Assembly: GCA_039193195.1 (NCBI GenBank) | Contig: JBCCWS010000001.1 | Span: 443,338-507,337 of the forward strand | Origin: Pseudomonadota bacterium | GTDB taxonomy: Bacteria > Pseudomonadota > Gammaproteobacteria > Steroidobacterales > JBCBZW01 | DNA length: 64,000 nt | Reading direction: 5' to 3' | Shown here: positions 15,802 to 26,075 of the stretch, piece after piece | Layout: every line of letters begins with the position of its first letter | Position numbering within the stretch: the first letter of the stretch is position 1 | Notes under the pieces: generated by a model | Databases searched by the model: none | What the model was told of the DNA's origin: nothing | Seen by the model: the letters and a program-made list of their open reading frames with translations, nothing else | Made by a program: the position numbers and the translations under genes

Positions 15802-16899
15802 TCAGTGGCGAGCTGCGGCGCGTCCGAAGGACTGGACAATTCGGGTGATGCCCTTGAGGTCTGTTTCCTTGGCGACCGCGCCCAGCTTGGCGGCTTCGGC
15901 GGGCATTCCATAGACGACACACGAGCGCTCGCTCTGACCCACTGTCAGTGCCCCAGTGCTACGAAGCTCAGCTAAACCACGGGCCCCGTCGTCTCCCATG
16001 CCCGTCATGATCACGCCGAGGGCGGCATCCCCGGCGGTCTGCGCGACGGAGCGGAATAGGACGTCCACGGACGGGCGGTGTCGCGAGACTAGGGGGCCGT
16101 CCACGATTTGGCAGCTGTAGCAATCGCCGCGCGGGCGCACGATCAGGTGATGACCGCCCGGGGCGATGAGCGCGAGGCCAGGTTCGACCTCATCCCCGCT
16201 TTGCGCTTCGCGCACCTCGAGCTTAGAGACGGCGTTCAAGCGACGGGCGAATGCCGCCGTGAAGTGTTCGGGCATGTGCTGCACGACGACGATGCCATGG
16301 GCCGTATCGTCGAGGTCTTCGAACACGGTCTCTAGCGCTTGCGTGCCTCCGGTAGAGGCGCCGATCGCGACCAAGGGGCTGCGCCGCTTGCTTGCGGAAA
16401 CCGCCAGGCGTTTGGCCGGGAGCACCACATCGGCCGTGTGCCTTTCCTGTCGTCCGATCGGCGGCGCTTGGCGCACCGTGCGCTTGCGTACTGGGGACAG
16501 CTGAACGCTCGCGGCTGCTCGCACCTTGTCCGTGATGATGATCTTGCCCTCTTCGATCGCCGCCGAGGAGCTGAGCTTGGGCTTGCTCATCACATCGACG
16601 GCACCCGCTCGCAGCGCTTCCACGCAGGTTGCGTTCTTGCCGTTGATCAAGGTGGAGCAGATCACTACGGGAATCGGTCGCTGGGACATGATTCGGCGCA
16701 AGAACGAGAGGCCGTCCATGCGCGGCATCTCGATGTCCAGCACGATCACATCCGGCACCCGCTGTTTGATCACGTCGACGGCCTGAAACGGATCGTGGGC
16801 GGTCGCCATGACACGCATGTCCGGTTGGCTATCGATCATCTCGCGCAGTGCCTCACGCACGGTGGCAGAGTCATCGACGATCAGGACCTCGATGCTCAT
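15802..16899 (-). CDS. cheB: Chemotaxis protein-glutamate methylesterase CheB
   Basis: A 365-residue CheB. Receiver domain (about residues 1-120): DD acidic pocket in LIVDDSATVRE, phospho-acceptor Asp in VLDIEMPRMDG, Lys in SKPKL. A linker rich in basic residues follows. The methylesterase domain (about 170-360) has the catalytic Ser in GASTGGTQ, His in VQHMPEHFT and Asp in MTGMGDDGARG. It removes methyl groups from chemoreceptor glutamates and deamidates glutamines. The start overlaps the cheR stop (ATGA). It is the last gene of the che operon. Confidence 0.96.
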   Translation of the reverse strand: MSIEVLIVDDSATVREALREMIDSQPDMRVMATAHDPFQAVDVIKQRVPDVIVLDIEMPRMDGLSFLRRIMSQRPIPVVICSTLINGKNATCVEALRAGAVDVMSKPKLSSSAAIEEGKIIITDKVRAAASVQLSPVRKRTVRQAPPIGRQERHTADVVLPAKRLAVSASKRRSPLVAIGASTGGTQALETVFEDLDDTAHGIVVVQHMPEHFTAAFARRLNAVSKLEVREAQSGDEVEPGLALIAPGGHHLIVRPRGDCYSCQIVDGPLVSRHRPSVDVLFRSVAQTAGDAALGVIMTGMGDDGARGLAELRSTGALTVGQSERSCVVYGMPAEAAKLGAVAKETDLKGITRIVQSFGRAAARH

Positions 16900-17807
16900 C
16901 GAGTACCTCCGCTACGACGCTGGTAGAGCGAAGGCCCGACCGCCTCCATGTCGAGGTCCTTCGCAGGAAAGTGTTCGGAATGTCCGGTGATCAACAGCCC
17001 CCCGGGCGCAAGTCGGTCCCGCAGAGCTCGAACCACCTTGAGCCTATTCGGACTATCGAAGTAGATAAGGCAGTTGCGGATCATGATGACGTCAAATCCG
17101 GTGGCGACTGAGTAGGGTGTCTCCACCAGATTCAGCTGCCGCGAGGTCACGCGGCGTCGCAGGTCGGGCGCTATGCGAACGTACCCGGTCAGCCGACCGT
17201 GGCCGCGCAGGAAGTAGCGCTCGCGCAAGGCTTGATCGAGCGTGTCCACGTCCTTCGCCGGATAGATGGCGTTTTGTACCTGGCGTAGCGCCTGCGCATT
17301 GATATCCGTGGCCAAGATCTCAAAGGCGGGTCCGCCCTGAAGTCGCTGGTATTCGGCCAGCGCGATCGCTAACGTGTACGCCTCCTGGCCGATAGAGGCG
17401 GCTGCACTCCACGTGCGCAGGAGTCGTCCTCCGCGCCGATGGGCGCCAAGAATCTGCGGAAGGTAAACCTGCGTGAGGTACTCAAAGTGGTGAGCCTCGC
17501 GCATGAAGCTGGTGGTCTGCGTGGTCACTGCTTCGCAGATCAGATCGCGCTCCCTACCGATACCCCCCTGCCTGAACAGGTACTCGCAGTAGGCTTCCAG
17601 CGAGTGCTTGCCGAGTTCGCGCATGCGACGCTGAAGGCGGGTCTGCAGCATGGACCGGTGGCGCTCGTCGATGACTAAGCCCCAGTGGTCGAAAATGTAG
17701 CGTGCGAGCATCGCAACGGGTCCCGCGGCGAACGCGCTTGCAGTGATCGGTTGTTGCACTGGTAATGGTCGACGACAAGTTGGATGTACCGGAGCTGAGC
17801 GGTGCAC
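16896..17807 (-). CDS. cheR: Chemotaxis protein methyltransferase CheR (start uncertain)
   Basis: A CheR of up to 303 residues that methylates receptor glutamates using SAM. An N-terminal helical domain (RSMLQTRLQRRMRELG) leads to the SAM-binding domain with LRTWSAAASIGQEAYTLAIAL, ILATDINAQAL and MIRNCLIYFD. The usual C-S/T-G-E loop reads ASIGQEAY, a variant seen in other CheR proteins. The longest frame begins at a GTG (17807) that lies inside a strong hairpin (17797-17831) without a ribosome site. The ATG at 17711 (MLARYIFDHWG) or GTG at 17759 may be the true start; the ATG has GGGA about 10 nt upstream. Overlaps cheB by 4 nt. Confidence 0.9.
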   Translation of the reverse strand: MHRSAPVHPTCRRPLPVQQPITASAFAAGPVAMLARYIFDHWGLVIDERHRSMLQTRLQRRMRELGKHSLEAYCEYLFRQGGIGRERDLICEAVTTQTTSFMREAHHFEYLTQVYLPQILGAHRRGGRLLRTWSAAASIGQEAYTLAIALAEYQRLQGGPAFEILATDINAQALRQVQNAIYPAKDVDTLDQALRERYFLRGHGRLTGYVRIAPDLRRRVTSRQLNLVETPYSVATGFDVIMIRNCLIYFDSPNRLKVVRALRDRLAPGGLLITGHSEHFPAKDLDMEAVGPSLYQRRSGGTR

Positions 17808-17839: not shown

Positions 17840-19903
17840 TTAGCCAGCGTCTCTATAAGGTTCGAAGTGCGTGTCGTCCACCTCTTCTCCGCCCAAAAGG
17901 TCGATGGCGAAGCCATCGTCATGGGCGGCAGGTGGTGGGGAGGGTCGGCGAGTCGCGGTGGACGTCGTCGAGCGCGTGGGTGCCGTTGCGCTGCTGGCGC
18001 CGAGCACGGGCGTGCCCTGGCGGACGTGGTCATCGAGCTTGAAGAACGCGAGCAGCGACTGTAGCTCCGAGGCCTGGCCGGCAAGCGCATCGGATACGCT
18101 CGAGACCTCTTCCGAAGCGCTCGCGTTCTGCTGCACGACGCCGTCCATCTGGCGCATCGCTTCGTTGATCTGCTCCGCGCCGATATTCTGCTCTCGACTC
18201 GCCGCTGAGATCTCTCGCACGAGCTCAGCAGTGCGCTCTATGTTCGGCACCAAGGCCTCTAGCTTCGCGCCAGCCTCCTTGGACAAGCCTAGGGTTTCGC
18301 TGCTCAGTTCGTTGATCTCCGCCGCAGCCTGTTGGCTGCGTTCGGCCAGCTTGCGCACTTCTGCAGCTACCACTGCGAAGCCCTTGCCATGTTGACCAGC
18401 ACGCGCGGCCTCCACCGCCGCGTTGAGGGCGAGAAGATCCGTTTGACGAGCGATCTCCTGCACGATGTTGATTTTCTCGGCGATCGTCTCGATGGAGGCC
18501 AGGGCCTTGTTGACCACCTCGCCGCTCGAGCGCGTATCGCCCGACGCGTTGTCGGCGATCGTCTCGGTGGTGGAGGCATTGTCCGCGGCGTGACGAATGT
18601 TGGCTGCCATCTCCTCCACCGCTGATGAGGCTTCCTGCGTGGCTGACGACTGCTCGGTGGCGCCGCGGGAGAGTTGTTCCGCAGAGGAGGCCAGCTTAGT
18701 GCTCCCGTGGGCGACCTGGTTGGCGGTGTGGGCCGCGTTACTCACCACGTCGCGAAGGCGTGTGAGCATCGTCGCGTTGGCATCGAGCAAGTCCTTGAAT
18801 TCATCGTTACCGCTCACGGTCTCCGACACGGTCAGATCGCCCTTGGCCACCGCCTGGGCCATCCGGACCGCCTTGTTGAGGGCCGTGGTGATCGTGCTGG
18901 AGATCCACAGGCCTGCAGCGCACCCCACGACGAGTACGGCCACCACCATCTGCAGCAGCGTATTTCGGGCCGACTTGTAGCTCTGATCGCTGATCTGCGT
19001 GTCTCGCTCCATGGCGGCGAGGTTGCTAGTGACGAGGTTGCGCAGTGCCTCGCGGGTGCGAGAGAGCGACTCATCGCCCTCGCCCGCGGAGCGCTCGAAG
19101 GCGCGCCGGTTGCCATTCTCCATGGAGGTCTCCATGGCGGCGGTGGCGTAGCGCTTGTAGCCTCCCCACCCCTCTGTCAGCTGCGACATCGCTTGCCCGC
19201 CGCTGCCGGCGAACAGAGTTCGCAGCACTTCGACCTTCTCATCGGCGGAGGCGTAACGGGCTTGTGCGTTGTCAAAGTGCTTGCTCATCTCGTCATCGTC
19301 GTTGGCGATGATCAGGTTCTTCTCAGAGCGTACGGACTGCACCATGTCTTCCTTCAGGCGCGCGATAGTCAGCAGGGCCTGATCCGCAATCTGCGGGATG
19401 CTAGCGGCGCGATCGAGAAGCGTGGTTATCGCCCGTTCGGCGGTGCCAATCGCCTCCCGCGCCTCGTTCGACGACAGCTCACGGGCGCGAGCGTTGGAGT
19501 TGAGCATGGACAGGCGGATCACCTGGGCGTTGTTCTCCACGTAGCCCGCCCAGGCAGCTTCGAATTCGGCCACGTCCGCGTTGCTGCCATCACCGATGAG
19601 CGCCTTCAGGGTGCTCAGCTTCTGCTCGATCTCTTGACGATTGCTGTCGATCAGGCGCTGATAGCGCTCCACGACTACCGGGTCCTCGGCGAGCACGATG
19701 TTCTTCTCGGAGCGGGCGATCTCCAAGGCGAGGCGCTGAATGTCCTGCGCCGTGGTCACTCGCATCGTCGACTCGGTGGCGAGCGTCTTGAGTCGAGCGT
19801 TCATGCCCCCGAGCTTGTCGATACCGATATAGCCAAGGCCGCCGGCGAACGCGAGTAGAAGCGTGAAGGCACCTGTGAGCTTGAGTTTGATGGTAAGTCG
19901 CAT
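17840..19903 (-). CDS. Methyl-accepting chemotaxis protein with bimodular helical sensor
   Basis: A 687-residue transmembrane chemoreceptor. TM1 is about residues 9-28 and TM2 about 316-336, enclosing a periplasmic region of about 287 residues. That region carries the same motif twice, RSEKNIVLA at 64-72 and RSEKNLIIA at 192-200, which points to two stacked four-helix bundles as in HBM-type sensors. HAMP follows (about 337-390), then the signalling domain with the conserved tip [18 protein letters not shown]. The C-terminal tail is Ser/Thr/Pro-rich and ends without the NWETF-type CheR tether. It would report an unknown small ligand to the CheW/CheA encoded upstream. Likely second last of the receptor-kinase genes, 11 nt after cheW. 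Confidence 0.96.
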
Positions 19904-19914
19904 TGGGCGATCTC

Positions 19915-20433
19915 CTACGCGATCAGCGGCTTGGTGGATTCGACGCTTGTGTCGAAGACATTTTCGAGGTTCAAGATGATCGTCAGTCGCTCACGGATCC
20001 GGGCGATGCCCGTGATGAGTTTTCCGTTCCATTTGCTGCCGCTCTCCGGCAGCTCTTCGATGGTCAGTTCTTGCACAGGTTCGACGTTGTAAACAGCGTC
20101 TACGGCCATCGCCACGCGCGTTGTCTCTCCCTCCACTCTCACTTCGAAGACCACCGTTCGGGTGCTTTTTCCCTGGTCCCTAGGCGGCATGCCAAAGCGG
20201 TAGCGTAGGTCGATCACGGGCACGACGTTGCCACGCACATTGATGACGCCAGGGGCGAACCTATTGGCGTGCGGCACGGGCGTCATAGAGACGATGTCGA
20301 GAATCTCCTGCACGCGCATCACGTTGATTGCGAACACCTCGCCACCGAGCTCGAAGGTGAGCAGGGTGTTGACGGTCTCTTCCTCAACGATGACGTCGGG
20401 CGGCGCTGTCGCCGGTGTGGCTGCGTCATTCAT
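19915..20433 (-). CDS. cheW: Chemotaxis coupling protein CheW
   Basis: A 172-residue CheW that links receptors to CheA at the inner membrane. The CheW fold starts after an Ala/Pro-rich 20-residue lead, with [22 protein letters not shown], then [20 protein letters not shown] and [21 protein letters not shown]. The start ATG overlaps the cheA stop (ATGA). Confidence 0.96.
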
Positions 20434-22484
20434 GCAGCACCTCGAGGTTTGCTTCTGCGGTCAGTGGAGCCAGTCTTGGCGATCGGGATCAGGGCGCCCA
20501 CATCGACGATCAGGGCGACGCGCCCGTCGCCGAGAATGGTGCCCCCCGCGATCCCTCTGCAGTGGCGGTGGAGGCGCGTCATGGGCTTGATCACCGTCTG
20601 GCGCTGTCCGATGATCTCGTCCACCACCAAGCCAAGGCGCTCACGCCCCACGCGGACGACGACCACGCGACGATCCTTCCCAGGCGTGTACGGGAAGTCG
20701 AACAGCTCATGCATGCGTGCGAAGGGTACGTACTCATCGCGGATCGTAATCATGCGCCGGCTCTCGCTGGCCAGATCTTCCTGCGCGCTGATGTCTACGC
20801 ACTCCTCGATAGCATCCAACGGTAGGACAAAGGCGCCTCCGTTCACGTTCACGTGGAACCCCTCAACGATGGCAAGCGTTAGGGGCAGGCGCAGGGTGAT
20901 GCGAGTGCCACGACCCTGCTCGGTCTCCACGAAGATGCTGCCGCGCTGGTCTTGGATCGTGCGTCGAACCACGTCCATGCCGACGCCGCGGCCGGACACG
21001 TTGGAGACCACGGTGGCGGTGGAGAAGCCGGGTTCGAAGATCATCATCTGCAGGGTGGTATCGGGAACTTCCTGGTCCTCCGTCAGTAGGCCGCGCTCGA
21101 TCGCGCGCTCGCGCACCTTGGATAGGTCGATGCCGGCCCCGTCGTCGGTGATGGTGATGTGAACCTCACCGCCCTCGTGTCGAGCGGCCAGCTGCAGGCG
21201 GCCCTTCTCCGGTTTACCAGCCGCGACGCGCGCTTGCGGGGACTCCAGGCCATGGTCCATCGAGTTGCGGATAAGATGGACCAAGGGGTCGTTCAGTAGC
21301 TCGATGAAGTACTTATCGATTTCCGTCTCCTCGCCGAGCACCTCGAAGGAGATGTTCTTGCCGAGCTCCTTGCTCAGGGTGCGCGTGATGCGGCGGAACT
21401 TCGAGAACAGGAGTCCGATGGGCACCATGCGAATGTCGAGGGTGTCGTCGCGCAGGTTCGTCACCAGGCGATCGATGTCTTCGGACACCGCGCGCAGGGC
21501 GGGGTCCGCGTAGCGATCTGAGATGTCAGCGAGGCGTGACTGAGCGATTACCAACTCACCTACCTGGTCCATCAGACTGTCGAGCTTCTCCGCCGATACG
21601 CGAAGACTCTCCGATCCCTTGCTAGCACCATTAGAGGTGCTGGGAGCGGCTGGTTTCTCCGCCTTGGCCGCGTTCTCTTTGGCGCCCTTCGCCTGCTGTT
21701 GACCATCGGGGGGCGGCGCAGCTGAAGGGGGTGAGCTATTGGCGGCTGCGTCTTCCCTGGCAGCCTCGAGCAGAGTGATCTCCAAGGTGGCGTTATCGGC
21801 CACAAACACGAACACATCTTCGACCCGCTCGCGTCCCGCATCGCTCTCGAGGGTTATCTCCCAGCCTAGGTGGCAGGCCGTTGGGTCGAGTTCGCTTAGA
21901 GGCCGTACACGGTCGCAGAGCAAAGACGCTTCGATGGCGCCCAATTCGCGCAGCTCCTCGAGCAGCAGCAGCGGGTTGGTGCCGTAGCGAAACGCGTTGT
22001 CTTCCGGGTAGAAGACAATGCGGTAGTTGCACATCTCGCCGCTGCCGTCGTTGCGCCCGCGTCCCTCGCCCGCGGGAGCCGCTGGTGCGCCACCTTCGCC
22101 GGGGGCTGTGGGTCCCATCGCGGCTTCCAAGCGGGCTGCGATCGGATCGCCGTCGGCGGGTTGCGCGCTGCCGTCGAGTAGGTGGGCGATGTGATCCCCG
22201 GCCTCGAGGGAAATCTCGATCAGCTCGGGGGTGAGCGCCACCTGACCGGTCCGCACCGTATCGAAGGCGGTTTCGAAGCGATGGGCGAAAGCGACGATGT
22301 CATCGAAGCCGAACATCCCGCCCGAGCCCTTGATTGTGTGTAGGGCACGAAACGCTTCGTTGATCAGTTCGGCATCTTCATTACCGTCCTGCATCGCCAG
22401 CAGGGCGGTCTCCAGACGCGTCAACAGCTCAGCGGCTTCCTCGCGATAGGTATCGCTTGGGTCGCGTCTGCTGGCGTCGCTCAT
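20430..22484 (-). CDS. cheA: Chemotaxis histidine kinase CheA
   Basis: A 684-residue CheA. The P1 HPt domain has its phospho-accepting histidine at residue 49 (FRALHTIKGSGGMFGFD). A P2-like alpha/beta module follows at about residues 150-245, then a flexible Ala/Pro/Lys-rich linker, the dimerisation helices, the ATPase domain (HLIRNSMDHGLES N-box, DDGAGID, FEPGFSTA, GRGVGMDVV) and the CheW-like regulatory domain at the end. All kinase boxes are intact. It phosphorylates the CheY and CheB encoded on either side. The start overlaps the cheY stop by 4 nt. Confidence 0.97.
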   Translation of the reverse strand: MSDASRRDPSDTYREEAAELLTRLETALLAMQDGNEDAELINEAFRALHTIKGSGGMFGFDDIVAFAHRFETAFDTVRTGQVALTPELIEISLEAGDHIAHLLDGSAQPADGDPIAARLEAAMGPTAPGEGGAPAAPAGEGRGRNDGSGEMCNYRIVFYPEDNAFRYGTNPLLLLEELRELGAIEASLLCDRVRPLSELDPTACHLGWEITLESDAGRERVEDVFVFVADNATLEITLLEAAREDAAANSSPPSAAPPPDGQQQAKGAKENAAKAEKPAAPSTSNGASKGSESLRVSAEKLDSLMDQVGELVIAQSRLADISDRYADPALRAVSEDIDRLVTNLRDDTLDIRMVPIGLLFSKFRRITRTLSKELGKNISFEVLGEETEIDKYFIELLNDPLVHLIRNSMDHGLESPQARVAAGKPEKGRLQLAARHEGGEVHITITDDGAGIDLSKVRERAIERGLLTEDQEVPDTTLQMMIFEPGFSTATVVSNVSGRGVGMDVVRRTIQDQRGSIFVETEQGRGTRITLRLPLTLAIVEGFHVNVNGGAFVLPLDAIEECVDISAQEDLASESRRMITIRDEYVPFARMHELFDFPYTPGKDRRVVVVRVGRERLGLVVDEIIGQRQTVIKPMTRLHRHCRGIAGGTILGDGRVALIVDVGALIPIAKTGSTDRRSKPRGAA

Positions 22485-22846
22485 GAGCCGACCAGCTTGC
22501 GCACGACAGCGACGAGCTGCTCGTTCTTAAAGGGCTTGACGATCCAACCGGTAGCGCCGGCTGCCTTGCCTTCGGCTTTGCGACTGTCCTGGCTTTCGGT
22601 GGTGAGCATTACGATGGGGCGCCCAGTGAAGCTGGCCTTCGCTCGCAGGCCCTTGATCAGCCCGATGCCATCGAGGTTGGGCATGTTGAGGTCTGTGATC
22701 ACCATGTCCACCGTGTCATCTGCTTTGTCGAGCCCATCTGCTCCGTCCACGGCGGTGACCACCTGATAGCCGGCAGTTTCGAGTGTTAGCTTTACCATGT
22801 CGCGGATAGACTCGCTGTCGTCCACCGCCAAGATGCGTTTACTCAC
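22481..22846 (-). CDS. cheY: Single-domain response regulator CheY
   Basis: A 121-residue receiver domain: acidic pair in ILAVDDSESIRD, phospho-acceptor Asp in MVITDLNMPNLDG, the Thr in MLTTESQ and the Lys in VKPFKNEQ. It closely resembles CheY-type regulators that bind the flagellar switch or act as a phosphate sink. The start is GTG at 22846 (VSKRILAVDD), with GGAG 8 nt upstream; it overlaps the STAS gene by 8 nt. A longer frame to 22975 would bury most of that gene and is rejected. Confidence 0.95.
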   Translation of the reverse strand: MSKRILAVDDSESIRDMVKLTLETAGYQVVTAVDGADGLDKADDTVDMVITDLNMPNLDGIGLIKGLRAKASFTGRPIVMLTTESQDSRKAEGKAAGATGWIVKPFKNEQLVAVVRKLVGS

Positions 22847-23126
22847 AGATCTGACTCCACAATGGGGCAAGGTCGGGTTGCTCGCTGCTGCTCTTGGCGA
22901 ATGCTCCACCCTCTTCGAGTAGATTTCTAACTGTATTAGCTGAGAGGCAACCACGGACTCGTTTCTCGAACTCATCGCGACCTTCTAGGTAGATTGCGAT
23001 GAGTAGTTGCAGGCCGGCGAAGTCGATCTGCTCCACCCGGTCGAGGTCCAGACCGTCCGACATTATTGTCGCGGAAAGCTCTTGAGATGAAGTGGCGCTC
23101 ATGGCTGAAATTGTCAGGCTTTTCAT
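22839..23126 (-). CDS. STAS-domain protein
   Basis: A 95-residue stand-alone STAS domain, first gene of the che operon. The central segment DLDRVEQIDFAGLQLLIAIYL corresponds to the DSSGLGVL stretch of anti-sigma-factor antagonists, but the phosphorylatable serine is replaced (DFAG), so kinase-controlled switching of the SpoIIAA type is unlikely. STAS proteins of this form occur in other gammaproteobacterial che operons; their function is not settled. The ATG at 23126 has a strong AAGGAG. Its stop lies within the beginning of cheY. Confidence 0.85.
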   Translation of the reverse strand: MKSLTISAMSATSSQELSATIMSDGLDLDRVEQIDFAGLQLLIAIYLEGRDEFEKRVRGCLSANTVRNLLEEGGAFAKSSSEQPDLAPLWSQICE

Positions 23127-23323: not shown

Positions 23324-25261
23324 ATGCAGAGCAGTGCCAGCGTATTGACGGTCGCCGATTCCGAAGCGGAGTACGCCGGCTCAGCGATGACCCCTTCTTT
23401 GACGCTCGAAGACCTCGCCGGTGTCAACAAATCGTTGGGGGATGTGTCTGCTGCCGTTGAGAGGACTTTTCTCGGTGCAAGCAAGCGCACGATGCAAACT
23501 GCGCGTGACCTGCATCACGTGAGCCAATTGGTCGAGAAACTGGTTACGCCAGCCGAGCGCCCCATGGAAGAGCAGGTCGCCTCTCTCGCTGGGGATGCGT
23601 TTGCGGTGCAACCGAGCGTAGAAGACTCATCCTCCGAGTGGGCAGCTCTCCAGGAGATCGCGCGCAAGGCGGAGGCGATGTGTGCGGAGCTCGAGTCGCT
23701 CGACCGCTGCTATCAGATGTTTCCCGTGCTGCGCGTTCTCACGCAGATCCATGGCAGCTCGCTGAATGAGGAGAGCCGCGACCTCGACTGGTTCGCCGAC
23801 GCCATCGGTAGTGAGGCGGATCGCGGCGGACAGGTAGTGGGTAATCTGCTGGTTACGGTCAAACGGCAGGCTTCGAAGCTCCGCGGGTCCATCCGCCAAG
23901 CCTTCGAGGGTGAGCAGCAATTGCGCGACGCCTTGGCGGAGTCAGAGGTGGTCATGGCGCGCTCCGCCGAGCAAATCGGCGCGCATGAGCGTGCCCACGA
24001 GCGCGCGTTTCGTGCCGTCCACGATCGCCAGCGCGCGATCAGCTCCGCCACGAGTGAACTCGTGTCCTCCATGCAGTTTCAAGATGCCTTTCGCCAGCGC
24101 GTGGAGCACGTTCAGCATGCCCTCGAGCAGCTGGTGTCCTTGCGTGAGCGGCAGGTGCTTCCCGGCTTCGAAGCCGATCGGATGCTGGACGGCGCCGAAC
24201 TATCGGTCGCTCAAGCGGTGTTGGTCAGTATCGTAAGAGACCAGACCGAGTCTCTGGCGCAAGACTTGGCTCAAGAGCATCGGCAGCTTGAAAGTGCCTT
24301 GAGTCGACTCGTCGAGCAGGTAGATGCGCTCGGTTCGGACCTGGCCAATGCCCTTGGCGGTTCCGAGCGGCAGGTAGCCGAGCACACGCTCGACTCGACC
24401 CTGCGCAACTACGCGGTGCAGGTGGGAATGCTCGCGAGGGTGTTTCACGGACGCTCGGCGATCACCAGATCTTTGAGAGCGGCGCTGGCCGAAATGGACA
24501 CGGATCTTCTCGACTTGGAGCAGGTGGGAGAGGCGATCTTCCTCCTTGCCGTCAACGCGGTCGTGCTCGCGGCCCGCCTGGGCGCTGAGGGGCGAGCGAT
24601 CGAGCAGATCGCTCAGCAGGTGCGTAGCAACAGCACGGAGGCGGGCACGGCGATTCGCCTCGTGCGCAAACTAACCGATGAGCTCCGTGCCCTTTGCATG
24701 AACGCGACCCAGGACGAGCAAACCGTAGCCGCTAGATCTGACGCGCAACCGTCGGTCACAGACCAAGAGGTTGCCGACAACCCTAATGGGGAGGCCCTTG
24801 ACGAAGCGCCCGCGGCGGACGACCCTGCCGTCGCAGGGGGCGCCGACCTGCGCTCAGCTGGTGCTTTGCGCGCTCGCTCTGCAGCGCTCATGGCGGCGCT
24901 TGAGCAGCGTGGCGAGCAAAGCGATGAGGTGCTCGGATTTTGCCGGAACATCTACGCCGGGTTTGCCGCAACGCGCACGGAGTTCTCAAGGTTGGACGGC
25001 GCGGTGCGTAGCTTATCGGCAACGAGTGCCGCTTGGGCGGCCCGCGCGGGCGAACACTCGCTCGACCTTCACCTGCGGCCGGATCTGGTGCGTGCCCTGG
25101 CAGACTACTTCAACGCGCACTACACGATGCAGAGCGAGCGGATCACGCAGGGCCTTGCCCTAATGCTGGGCGATGATGCTCCGGCCGCGGACGCCGCGGA
25201 CGACAATGCCTCACCTGCCGTTGAGGAAAAGGAAGACGACTTGAGTGACATCCTATTTTAG
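23324..25261 (+). CDS. Soluble MCP-like coiled-coil protein with CheZ-like motifs
   Basis: A 645-residue, predicted cytoplasmic, mostly helical protein; no signal peptide, membrane segment or HAMP. Around residues 404-440 (IFLLAVNAVVLAAR...EQIAQQVR) it resembles the signalling hairpin tip of chemoreceptors, though degenerate at several conserved positions. A long helix contains MQFQDAFRQ, where Asp254 and Gln258 match the DxxxQ spacing and FQD context of the CheZ phosphatase active site. The chain ends EDDLSDILF, like the acidic-hydrophobic CheY-binding tail of CheZ (DDLLDSLGF). An Ala/Asp-rich linker covers about residues 460-500. It is divergent from the STAS-cheY-cheA operon, and no separate cheZ is present. 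Role as a CheY-P phosphatase or scaffold is inference. Ribosome site weak; ATG at 23387 is an alternative start. Confidence 0.8.
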   Translation: MQSSASVLTVADSEAEYAGSAMTPSLTLEDLAGVNKSLGDVSAAVERTFLGASKRTMQTARDLHHVSQLVEKLVTPAERPMEEQVASLAGDAFAVQPSVEDSSSEWAALQEIARKAEAMCAELESLDRCYQMFPVLRVLTQIHGSSLNEESRDLDWFADAIGSEADRGGQVVGNLLVTVKRQASKLRGSIRQAFEGEQQLRDALAESEVVMARSAEQIGAHERAHERAFRAVHDRQRAISSATSELVSSMQFQDAFRQRVEHVQHALEQLVSLRERQVLPGFEADRMLDGAELSVAQAVLVSIVRDQTESLAQDLAQEHRQLESALSRLVEQVDALGSDLANALGGSERQVAEHTLDSTLRNYAVQVGMLARVFHGRSAITRSLRAALAEMDTDLLDLEQVGEAIFLLAVNAVVLAARLGAEGRAIEQIAQQVRSNSTEAGTAIRLVRKLTDELRALCMNATQDEQTVAARSDAQPSVTDQEVADNPNGEALDEAPAADDPAVAGGADLRSAGALRARSAALMAALEQRGEQSDEVLGFCRNIYAGFAATRTEFSRLDGAVRSLSATSAAWAARAGEHSLDLHLRPDLVRALADYFNAHYTMQSERITQGLALMLGDDAPAADAADDNASPAVEEKEDDLSDILF

Positions 25262-25367: not shown

Positions 25368-26075
25368 ATGAAGCCGGCTTGTTTGACGGCCGTGTTGATG
25401 AGTGCCGCGCTGGTGATGCCGGCTCTCGTATCCGCGCAAGCGGTGGACGAGGATCAACTCGGCGCCTGGTACATGTACTTTTACGATGTTCGTTTCGAGG
25501 ACTCACGCTTTGGCTTGCAAGGCGATGGCCAGTGGCGTAACTGGGATCTCGGCGGCGATCTCGAGCAGCTGCTATTGCGCAGCGGCGCCACCTTCACTCC
25601 GGAGGACAGCAACACTACCTTCACCTTCGGGTATGCGAGTATCACCTCCGGGTCCTTCGGGCCTAGCGATGCGAGTCAGCACGAGCATCGCATCTACCAA
25701 GAGGCCCTGATCCGCCAACGAGTGGGGTCGAGAGTGCGCCTACGTCATCGCCTGCGCACGGAGCAGCGCTTCGTGGAGGACCAGGACTTCCGCACCCGTT
25801 TCCGCTACGCGCTGTTCGTCGACATCCCCCTCAATCGGCGCGAGATGAACCCCGGGGCGTACTACCTGGCCCTGTACGACGAGGTGTTCATCAATTTGGA
25901 ACGTAACATCGGCGATGGCCGTCGTGTCGATCGCGTCGACCGTAACCGCCTCTACGGCGCCCTCGGCTATGTCGTCACGAGCACGCTGAAGGTGCAAGGG
26001 GGCGTGATGCTACAGTCGAGCGGCAGCATCGATAAGCCGCAGCTTCAGCTGAGCCTGCACCAGGCATTCCGCTGA
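25368..26075 (+). CDS. DUF2490 family outer-membrane-associated protein
   Basis: A 235-residue exported protein with a clear signal peptide (residues 1-24, cleavage after VSA). The mature part looks like an outer-membrane beta-barrel: alternating polar/hydrophobic strands, many aromatic residues, and the DUF2490 pattern (GAWYMYFYD, RLRHRLRTEQRF, FRYALFVDIPLN, LALYDEVFINL, NRLYGALGY). It ends with a phenylalanine-arginine after LSLHQAF. The function of the family is unknown. The ATG at 25368 has AAGGGGA upstream. The gene is alone, convergent with lipA. Confidence 0.85.
   Translation: MKPACLTAVLMSAALVMPALVSAQAVDEDQLGAWYMYFYDVRFEDSRFGLQGDGQWRNWDLGGDLEQLLLRSGATFTPEDSNTTFTFGYASITSGSFGPSDASQHEHRIYQEALIRQRVGSRVRLRHRLRTEQRFVEDQDFRTRFRYALFVDIPLNRREMNPGAYYLALYDEVFINLERNIGDGRRVDRVDRNRLYGALGYVVTSTLKVQGGVMLQSSGSIDKPQLQLSLHQAFR

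Follow-up and report, generated by a model that had tools for sequence, protein, structure and literature searches.

How the CheY signal is ended in a che cluster without cheZ is the question raised by the chemotaxis locus of a 64,000-nucleotide stretch of a gammaproteobacterial genome (the window; the genome is called G000 here), in which a gene for a 645-residue protein (23324..25261, forward strand) adjoins the che genes. As the preliminary description had it, the open frame contains Asp254-x3-Gln258 within MQFQDAFRQ (M250-Q-F-Q-D254-A-F-R-Q258) and its last residues are EDDLSDILF. Here we report the origin of this protein from two receptor hairpins in tandem, the conservation of Asp254, Gln258 and the C-terminal tail, the synteny of the gene with che genes, the absence of CheZ from its genome, and the association of the DxxxQ module with cheY. 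We consider it probable (roughly 60%) that this receptor-derived protein acts, in the manner of CheZ, as the CheY~P phosphatase of its own che cluster.

Results

The che genes of the window are encoded on the reverse strand and comprise genes for a STAS-domain protein that is CheS-like by position (22839..23126; Pfam STAS_2 E 0.0016, below the cut-off), cheY, the presumed substrate (22481..22846; Response_reg E 2.5e-24), cheA (20430..22484; Hpt, H-kinase_dim, HATPase_c and CheW domains), cheW (19915..20433; CheW E 1.5e-34), a methyl-accepting chemotaxis protein (MCP; 17840..19903; MCPsignal, HAMP and 4HB_MCP_1), cheR (16896..17807; CheR E 2e-46) and cheB (15802..16899; CheB_methylest and Response_reg). 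The next gene after that of the 645-residue protein in both G000 and its sister genome G001 encodes a DUF2490 outer-membrane-type protein (25368-26075), for which we know of no link to chemotaxis. The C-terminal end (20 residues) of the window MCP resembles a displaced CheR-binding pentapeptide, such as has been reported for the sole 34H receptor of P. syringae (PMC11253619).

The earlier observation that this che locus lacks cheZ was confirmed and extends to the whole genome (6.7 Mb, 98.7% complete). The CheZ profile PF04344 matched neither the 645-residue protein nor anything else in G000 at E 0.001 (an E. coli control was positive), and it had no match in G001 or in 24 carrier genomes; the same profile matched 153 of 369 gammaproteobacterial genomes. 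CheZ absence in rhizobia is general and not confined to genomes that carry homologues of the 645-residue protein. The CheC profile PF04509 had no match across G000. The genome contains FliM and a flagellar operon as well as three CheA genes, one in the window cluster, one in another cluster on contig 28 and one for a long ChpA-like protein. FliM of G000 starts with MNDLLTEQETEALLEGIED, which can be recognised as a CheY-binding N-terminus, so the motor of this organism probably still takes its signal from CheY. The flagellar operon on contig 13 (L025, L026) ends with a fliA-like and a methyltransferase-type gene, and neither cheY nor cheZ follows.

Searches of Pfam and NCBIfam gave no match above cut-off for the 645-residue protein, whose family is unnamed in these databases, and no CheC-like domain was found in it with Pfam. 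The closest approach was that of MCPsignal (PF00015), which reached 11.4 bits against a cut-off of 34.6 (E 0.28, residues 399-467); the homologue from Azospirillum barely passes the same cut-off with 35.2 bits. Annotated homologue records bear the names 'chemotaxis protein', 'hypothetical protein' or 'type VII secretion target', and each of them lies beside che genes. The last label, found on some Shinella homologues (L035:8971-10695, plasmid hits H6 and H9), was rejected and most likely stems from a match of a coiled coil to PF10824 that stays below threshold (23.3 versus 23.5 bits). A text search of the literature for the motif returned no paper.

Both halves of the protein derive from chemoreceptors. 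Hairpin 1 (residues 28-345; 23405..24358, forward strand) aligned by hhalign to single-hairpin receptors with a DxxxQ motif (about 400 residues long, from gammaproteobacteria; called DxxxQ receptors below) over 237 columns with E 1e-14, degenerate tip on tip and DxxxQ on DxxxQ. Hairpin 2 (residues 346-615), which together with a disordered linker up to residue 636 occupies 24359..25231 (forward strand), aligned to the same receptors over 182 columns with E 1.5e-18, tip on tip and YTM..ER on Y[TR]M..[EQ]R. The family profile matched the chemoreceptor cytoplasmic domain 2ch7 with E 3e-18 over positions 319-534. AlphaFold predicted a helical protein with long helical hairpins; the model of the N-terminal half had a mean pLDDT of 83 and matched chemoreceptor hairpins in Foldseek with probability 1.00, the linker had a pLDDT below 50, and the tail after it was modelled as a short helix of low confidence. 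A direct comparison of the two halves showed a weak likeness (E 1e-3). Because each half aligns to the same kind of receptor and the profile and Foldseek matches are to chemoreceptor hairpins, the protein consists of two receptor hairpins in tandem, with the parts divided between them. Judging from the alignments, copy one retained the DxxxQ motif, and copy two a degenerate tip and the tail; the position of the DxxxQ motif in the second half now reads LDF.AELGD in rhizobial members.

The two tips differ in how much of a receptor can still be seen. Tip 1 (about residues 127-165; 23702..23818, forward strand) was placed on the receptor tip by hhalign; it is unrecognisable in the 645-residue protein itself and clearer in homologues (LNAKIEAAR in Methylosinus, VNARIESA in L182). 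The degenerate receptor-like tip that had been proposed for residues 404-440 (tip 2; 24533..24643, forward strand) is real: it reads LAVNAVVLAARLGAEGRA, compared with LALNAAIEAARAGE.GRG in canonical receptors, and has lost several canonical residues but retains a GAEGRA turn, with Asn411, Gly420 and Gly423 invariant in the family. A conserved CheW/CheA-binding receptor tip was not found in the protein.

Homologues were identified by several searches. The ortholog in G001 is 78% identical and lies in the same place in an identical gene order. Searching a plasmid collection with tblastn yielded 15 records from Shinella, Rhizobium, Agrobacterium, Novosphingobium, Sphingomonas, Azospirillum and Methylosinus, and the arrangement around a Shinella homologue was identical to that of the window; when the proteins from Methylosinus and Azospirillum served as queries in turn, the same records came back, plus one match to an Aeromonas receptor. 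An earlier scan of genome contigs, built on two close sequences, gave no matches; a genome scan with the family alignment found 80 loci, mostly in Rhizobiaceae and including Rhizobium johnstonii 3841, with cheY, cheA and MCP genes alongside (neighbour counts at these loci are minimum values, since some genes escape the simple ORF picker). The profile of the N-terminal half found matches in seven of 385 alphaproteobacterial genomes, with D...Q kept in all matches read. No full-length relative from gammaproteobacteria beyond the own genus was present among 59 relatives, and in the sample of 369 gammaproteobacterial genomes G000 itself was the only full-length match.

The homologues adjoin cheY-cheA-cheW-MCP-cheR-cheB clusters in Rhizobiaceae, Sphingomonadaceae, Azospirillum and Methylosinus. 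The gene is divergent from STAS-cheY-cheA in the window and in most rhizobial loci, and next to cheB in others. The che2 cluster of strain 3841 has been described as class F8 with 34H receptors (PMC7617929), and by its gene content the homologue-bearing cluster of Rhizobium leguminosarum appears to be this class F8 che2 cluster.

Asp254 (24083-24085) and Gln258 (24095-24097) lie in the peptide MQFQDAFRQRVEH (residues 250-262; 24071..24109, forward strand), in which Gln251, Asp254, Gln258, Arg259 and His262 are invariant in ten of ten homologues. The C-terminal tail is EDDLSDILF (residues 637-645; 25232..25258, forward strand). Conservation of the Asp/Gln pair and of the tail, proposed earlier as a check, was found in all ten homologues (plasmid BLAST hits and two gammaproteobacterial genomes), in which Asp254, Gln258 and the D and F of the tail are kept at 17-25% identity. 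The window pair is 16-21% identical to the alphaproteobacterial sequences in the all-family alignment and 25% in a three-way alignment. The ten-sequence alignment has 16 invariant columns, which include Asp254, Gln258, Arg259, His262, Asn411, two glycines of the tip, the D and F of the tail, and Y, T, E and R of YTMQSER (residues 600-606; 25121..25141, forward strand), a motif in common with DxxxQ receptors and a 168-residue protein described below.

A chance occurrence of DxxxQ was ruled out: the protein contains three such motifs (at residues 127, 166 and 254), of which that of 254/258 is kept in 10/10 homologues and the other two in 2-4 of 10. Members L182-L188, which were found with a whole-domain profile instead of the motif, likewise retain D...Q. 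The 80 loci of the genome scan are uninformative on the pair because the DNA search pattern contained D..RQ; the tail lay outside this pattern and ends in LF in 79 of them. Between G000 and G001 the linker before the tail has diverged, yet DDLSDILF and ELVSSMQFQDAFRQRVEHVQHALEQL are identical. The reading frame is open in all members read except one rhizobial locus.

The DxxxQ receptors show that the combination of receptor tip, DxxxQ motif and hydrophobic C-terminal tail, previously thought to be undescribed, is common in single-hairpin receptors. In these, as in the 645-residue protein with respect to tip 1, the motif lies about 115 residues beyond the tip, and the tails include IELF, VELF, ITFF and VVFF. 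A cheY gene is a close neighbour in 10 of 19 DxxxQ-receptor loci versus 0 of 27 loci of receptors without the motif (Fisher p 2e-5, with related genomes that are not independent); several others of the 19 adjoin another core che gene, and one (L008) is probably a chance motif. Gene orders in longer stretches are DxxxQ-receptor, cheY, STAS, cheA, cheW and MCPs, or cheB, DxxxQ-receptor, cheY and cheD.

It is the McpA-like receptors of F7 clusters (McpA/CttP PA0180, VCA1088, SO_2117) that the DxxxQ receptors resemble, both in their gene order and in their tails. As described by Ortega et al. (PMC7184735), these clusters contain an McpA-like receptor and a cheY without cheZ, the C-terminus of the receptor is conserved, lacks a CheR pentapeptide and has an 'unclear biological role', and cheZ is carried solely by the F6 systems of those organisms. 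The DxxxQ receptors are homologous to both halves of the 645-residue protein and share with it DxxxQ, the tail and, in some cases, YTM..ER. Receptors of the McpA-like kind differ from it in having one hairpin, an intact tip, a membrane anchor and a place in F7 clusters, whereas the 645-residue protein is soluble, with two hairpins in tandem and degenerate tips, and is encoded in an F8-type cluster.

The second che cluster of G000 encodes, between a STAS gene and cheD, a protein of 168 residues (L024:6874-7377, contig 28) with QFADNQSQRLEHL (DxxxQ), DYTMARE and the tail SSIELF. By these motifs it is a minimal form of the same module without a tip. No Pfam or NCBIfam family matched it, and tblastn against the plasmids gave no match. 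The tails of CheD proteins match that of the DxxxQ protein of their own cluster (DIELF and SSIELF, CheD at L024:7440-8069; DITFF and EEITFF, CheD at L191:9906-10535), and this shared tail type suggests a common partner. CheY would be a sensible one, given that in Bacillus the effect of CheY~P on CheD runs through CheC; the array or CheB would serve equally.

The CheZ-like tail that had been claimed for the protein resembles CheZ tails above chance. In a comparison of 1,348 ORF C-termini with a CheZ-tail matrix (30 CheZ proteins, one gap allowed), the 645-residue protein and its sister came first and the next 26 were all family members, so that the best 28 consist entirely of the family. The profile of the DxxxQ receptors aligned to CheZ in hhalign with E 7e-4 and a probability of 27%, D on D and Q on Q, and none of 150 heptad-block shuffles of CheZ reached its score; the same was true of a joint profile of both families. 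The 645-residue family alone gave no significant alignment to CheZ, with 57 of 150 shuffles scoring equally high. The surroundings of the motif read SMQFQDAFRQRVEHV, versus MAQDFQDLTGQIIRRV in CheZ, for which the motifs AXXFQ and DXXXQ have been described (PMC7750401). The alignment suggests either common descent or convergence of a local helix and falls short of proving homology; the tail test is the stronger evidence of CheZ-likeness. In the structural searches, CheZ, whose fold is a four-helix bundle made by a dimer of hairpins, was not among the matches listed, which were mainly receptor hairpins and generic coiled coils and are uninformative either way.

The 645-residue protein shares with CheZ (PF04344) the Asp/Gln spacing in FQDxxxQ on a long helix, a flexible linker and an acidic-hydrophobic tail D[DE]L...LF. 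It differs from CheZ, a protein of about 215-230 residues and of the F6 class, in belonging to F8, in falling outside the CheZ model, in carrying its DxxxQ helix in a receptor-type hairpin, and in having a second receptor hairpin between the active pair and the tail. The preliminary description had proposed a fused or convergent CheY-P phosphatase. Its three parts are real and conserved, and phosphatase activity appears to be the best-supported function; a CheZ domain fused to a receptor tip was rejected, as PF04344 had no match and the DxxxQ helix belongs to a receptor-type hairpin.

Discussion

As a phosphatase, the protein would be a soluble pseudo-chemoreceptor of two tandem receptor-type helical hairpins, the first of which has lost its tip but, at the end distant from it, still bears Asp254 and Gln258, separated by one helical turn. 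The division of labour would be that of CheZ, with Gln258 placing the attacking water and Asp254 touching the active site of CheY. The tail on its flexible linker would dock on CheY like the C-terminal helix of CheZ and bring CheY~P to hairpin 1, and the degenerate tip of hairpin 2 may tether the protein to the receptor array, or may be a remnant. Catalysis, CheY docking and array placement are steps that we infer from sequence.

Two published systems would serve as precedents. CheT of Sinorhizobium meliloti, which according to a review dephosphorylates one CheY and binds CheR (PMC12654446, citing Agbekudzi et al. 2024), would be a precedent for a CheY phosphatase with DXXXQ that is not CheZ, and is likewise encoded in a che cluster without cheZ. 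CheT differs in its size (about 128 residues), in having no receptor parts and in binding CheR; the Ensifer copy ends in DFEAF, and the likeness is one of motif and context. CheT is small and encoded next to cheD; the 645-residue protein is neither, its cluster having no cheD, and the 168-residue protein fits by position. TlpC of Rhodobacter sphaeroides lacks the glycine-turn motif of the tip and interacts with CheW4 and the phosphatase CheA3 (PMC6829392). By its published description it is a soluble receptor-like protein tied to a CheY phosphatase, and as such a precedent for linking proteins of this kind with dephosphorylation; it differs in that the phosphatase is a domain of CheA3.

The main rival reading is that of a non-catalytic array adaptor, whose degenerate tip joins the array and whose tail holds CheY (or CheB or CheW) near CheA, with DxxxQ serving for packing or for the binding of a partner at the end of the helix. 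The receptor ancestry of both halves would suit such an adaptor, as would the binding of the tip-less TlpC to CheW4 and CheA3 (PMC6829392). Since Arg259, His262 and YT..ER are as conserved as the Asp/Gln pair, with the residues of RQR.EH and YTM..ER around and beyond it kept equally well, the DxxxQ region may have another role; and since CheD proteins of related clusters carry the same type of tail without DxxxQ, the tail may bind a partner other than CheY. An adaptor would, however, leave unexplained why the catalytic pair of CheZ occurs at CheZ spacing beside a CheZ-type tail, why the tip-less 168-residue form retains both DxxxQ and tail, and why CheZ is absent from the clusters with the module, and we regard this reading as unlikely.

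A role in adaptation or assembly, in which the module would act on receptor modification by binding, for example, CheR, CheB or CheD in the manner of the CheT-CheR pair of S. meliloti, seems less probable still. The frequent position of DxxxQ genes next to cheB, cheR or cheD, the tail that CheD carries and the binding of CheR by CheT in addition to its action on CheY (PMC12654446) are in keeping with it, but the F8 clusters seen here have no cheD and yet keep the tail, the nearest gene of the DxxxQ receptors is often cheY, and a double role as in CheT would be compatible with phosphatase activity. A decayed receptor duplicate with no present function, which would account for the two degenerate tips and the lost second DxxxQ, is very improbable given a frame open in every member read but one rhizobial locus, synteny and the same residues kept across classes at about 20% identity, and purifying selection on D, Q, H, YT..ER and the tail.

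If the 645-residue protein is a CheY~P phosphatase, a receptor-shaped protein would be an enzyme that acts on the output of the pathway, and it would show how a CheZ-like active site fits on a receptor helix; on sequence evidence, it would join the known DxxxQ CheY phosphatases. More tentatively, and perhaps somewhat against the odds, a single module found in McpA-like receptors of F7, in the tandem pseudo-receptor of F8 and in the 168-residue form could represent widespread, undescribed CheY~P phosphatases of chemoreceptor origin that terminate CheY signalling in che systems lacking CheZ. Receptors that have so far gone unexplained may then, as an entire class, be off-switches for this signalling, with sensing and signal termination within one receptor molecule. 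The F7 (stages 1 and 2) and F8 clusters discussed here have CheY and lack CheZ, and a phosphatase module would give one testable answer both to how their signal is ended and to the role of the McpA-like C-terminus. In Shewanella, overproduction of McpA raised swimming, with other MCPs as controls (PMC9855816); this would fit a phosphatase, and other explanations exist. An alphaproteobacterial genome encodes a DxxxQ receptor with the tail DDIELF (L187:928-2549) that is followed by genes for a STAS protein and an ATP-binding kinase of the anti-sigma type, an arrangement which suggests that some modules feed a partner-switching system.
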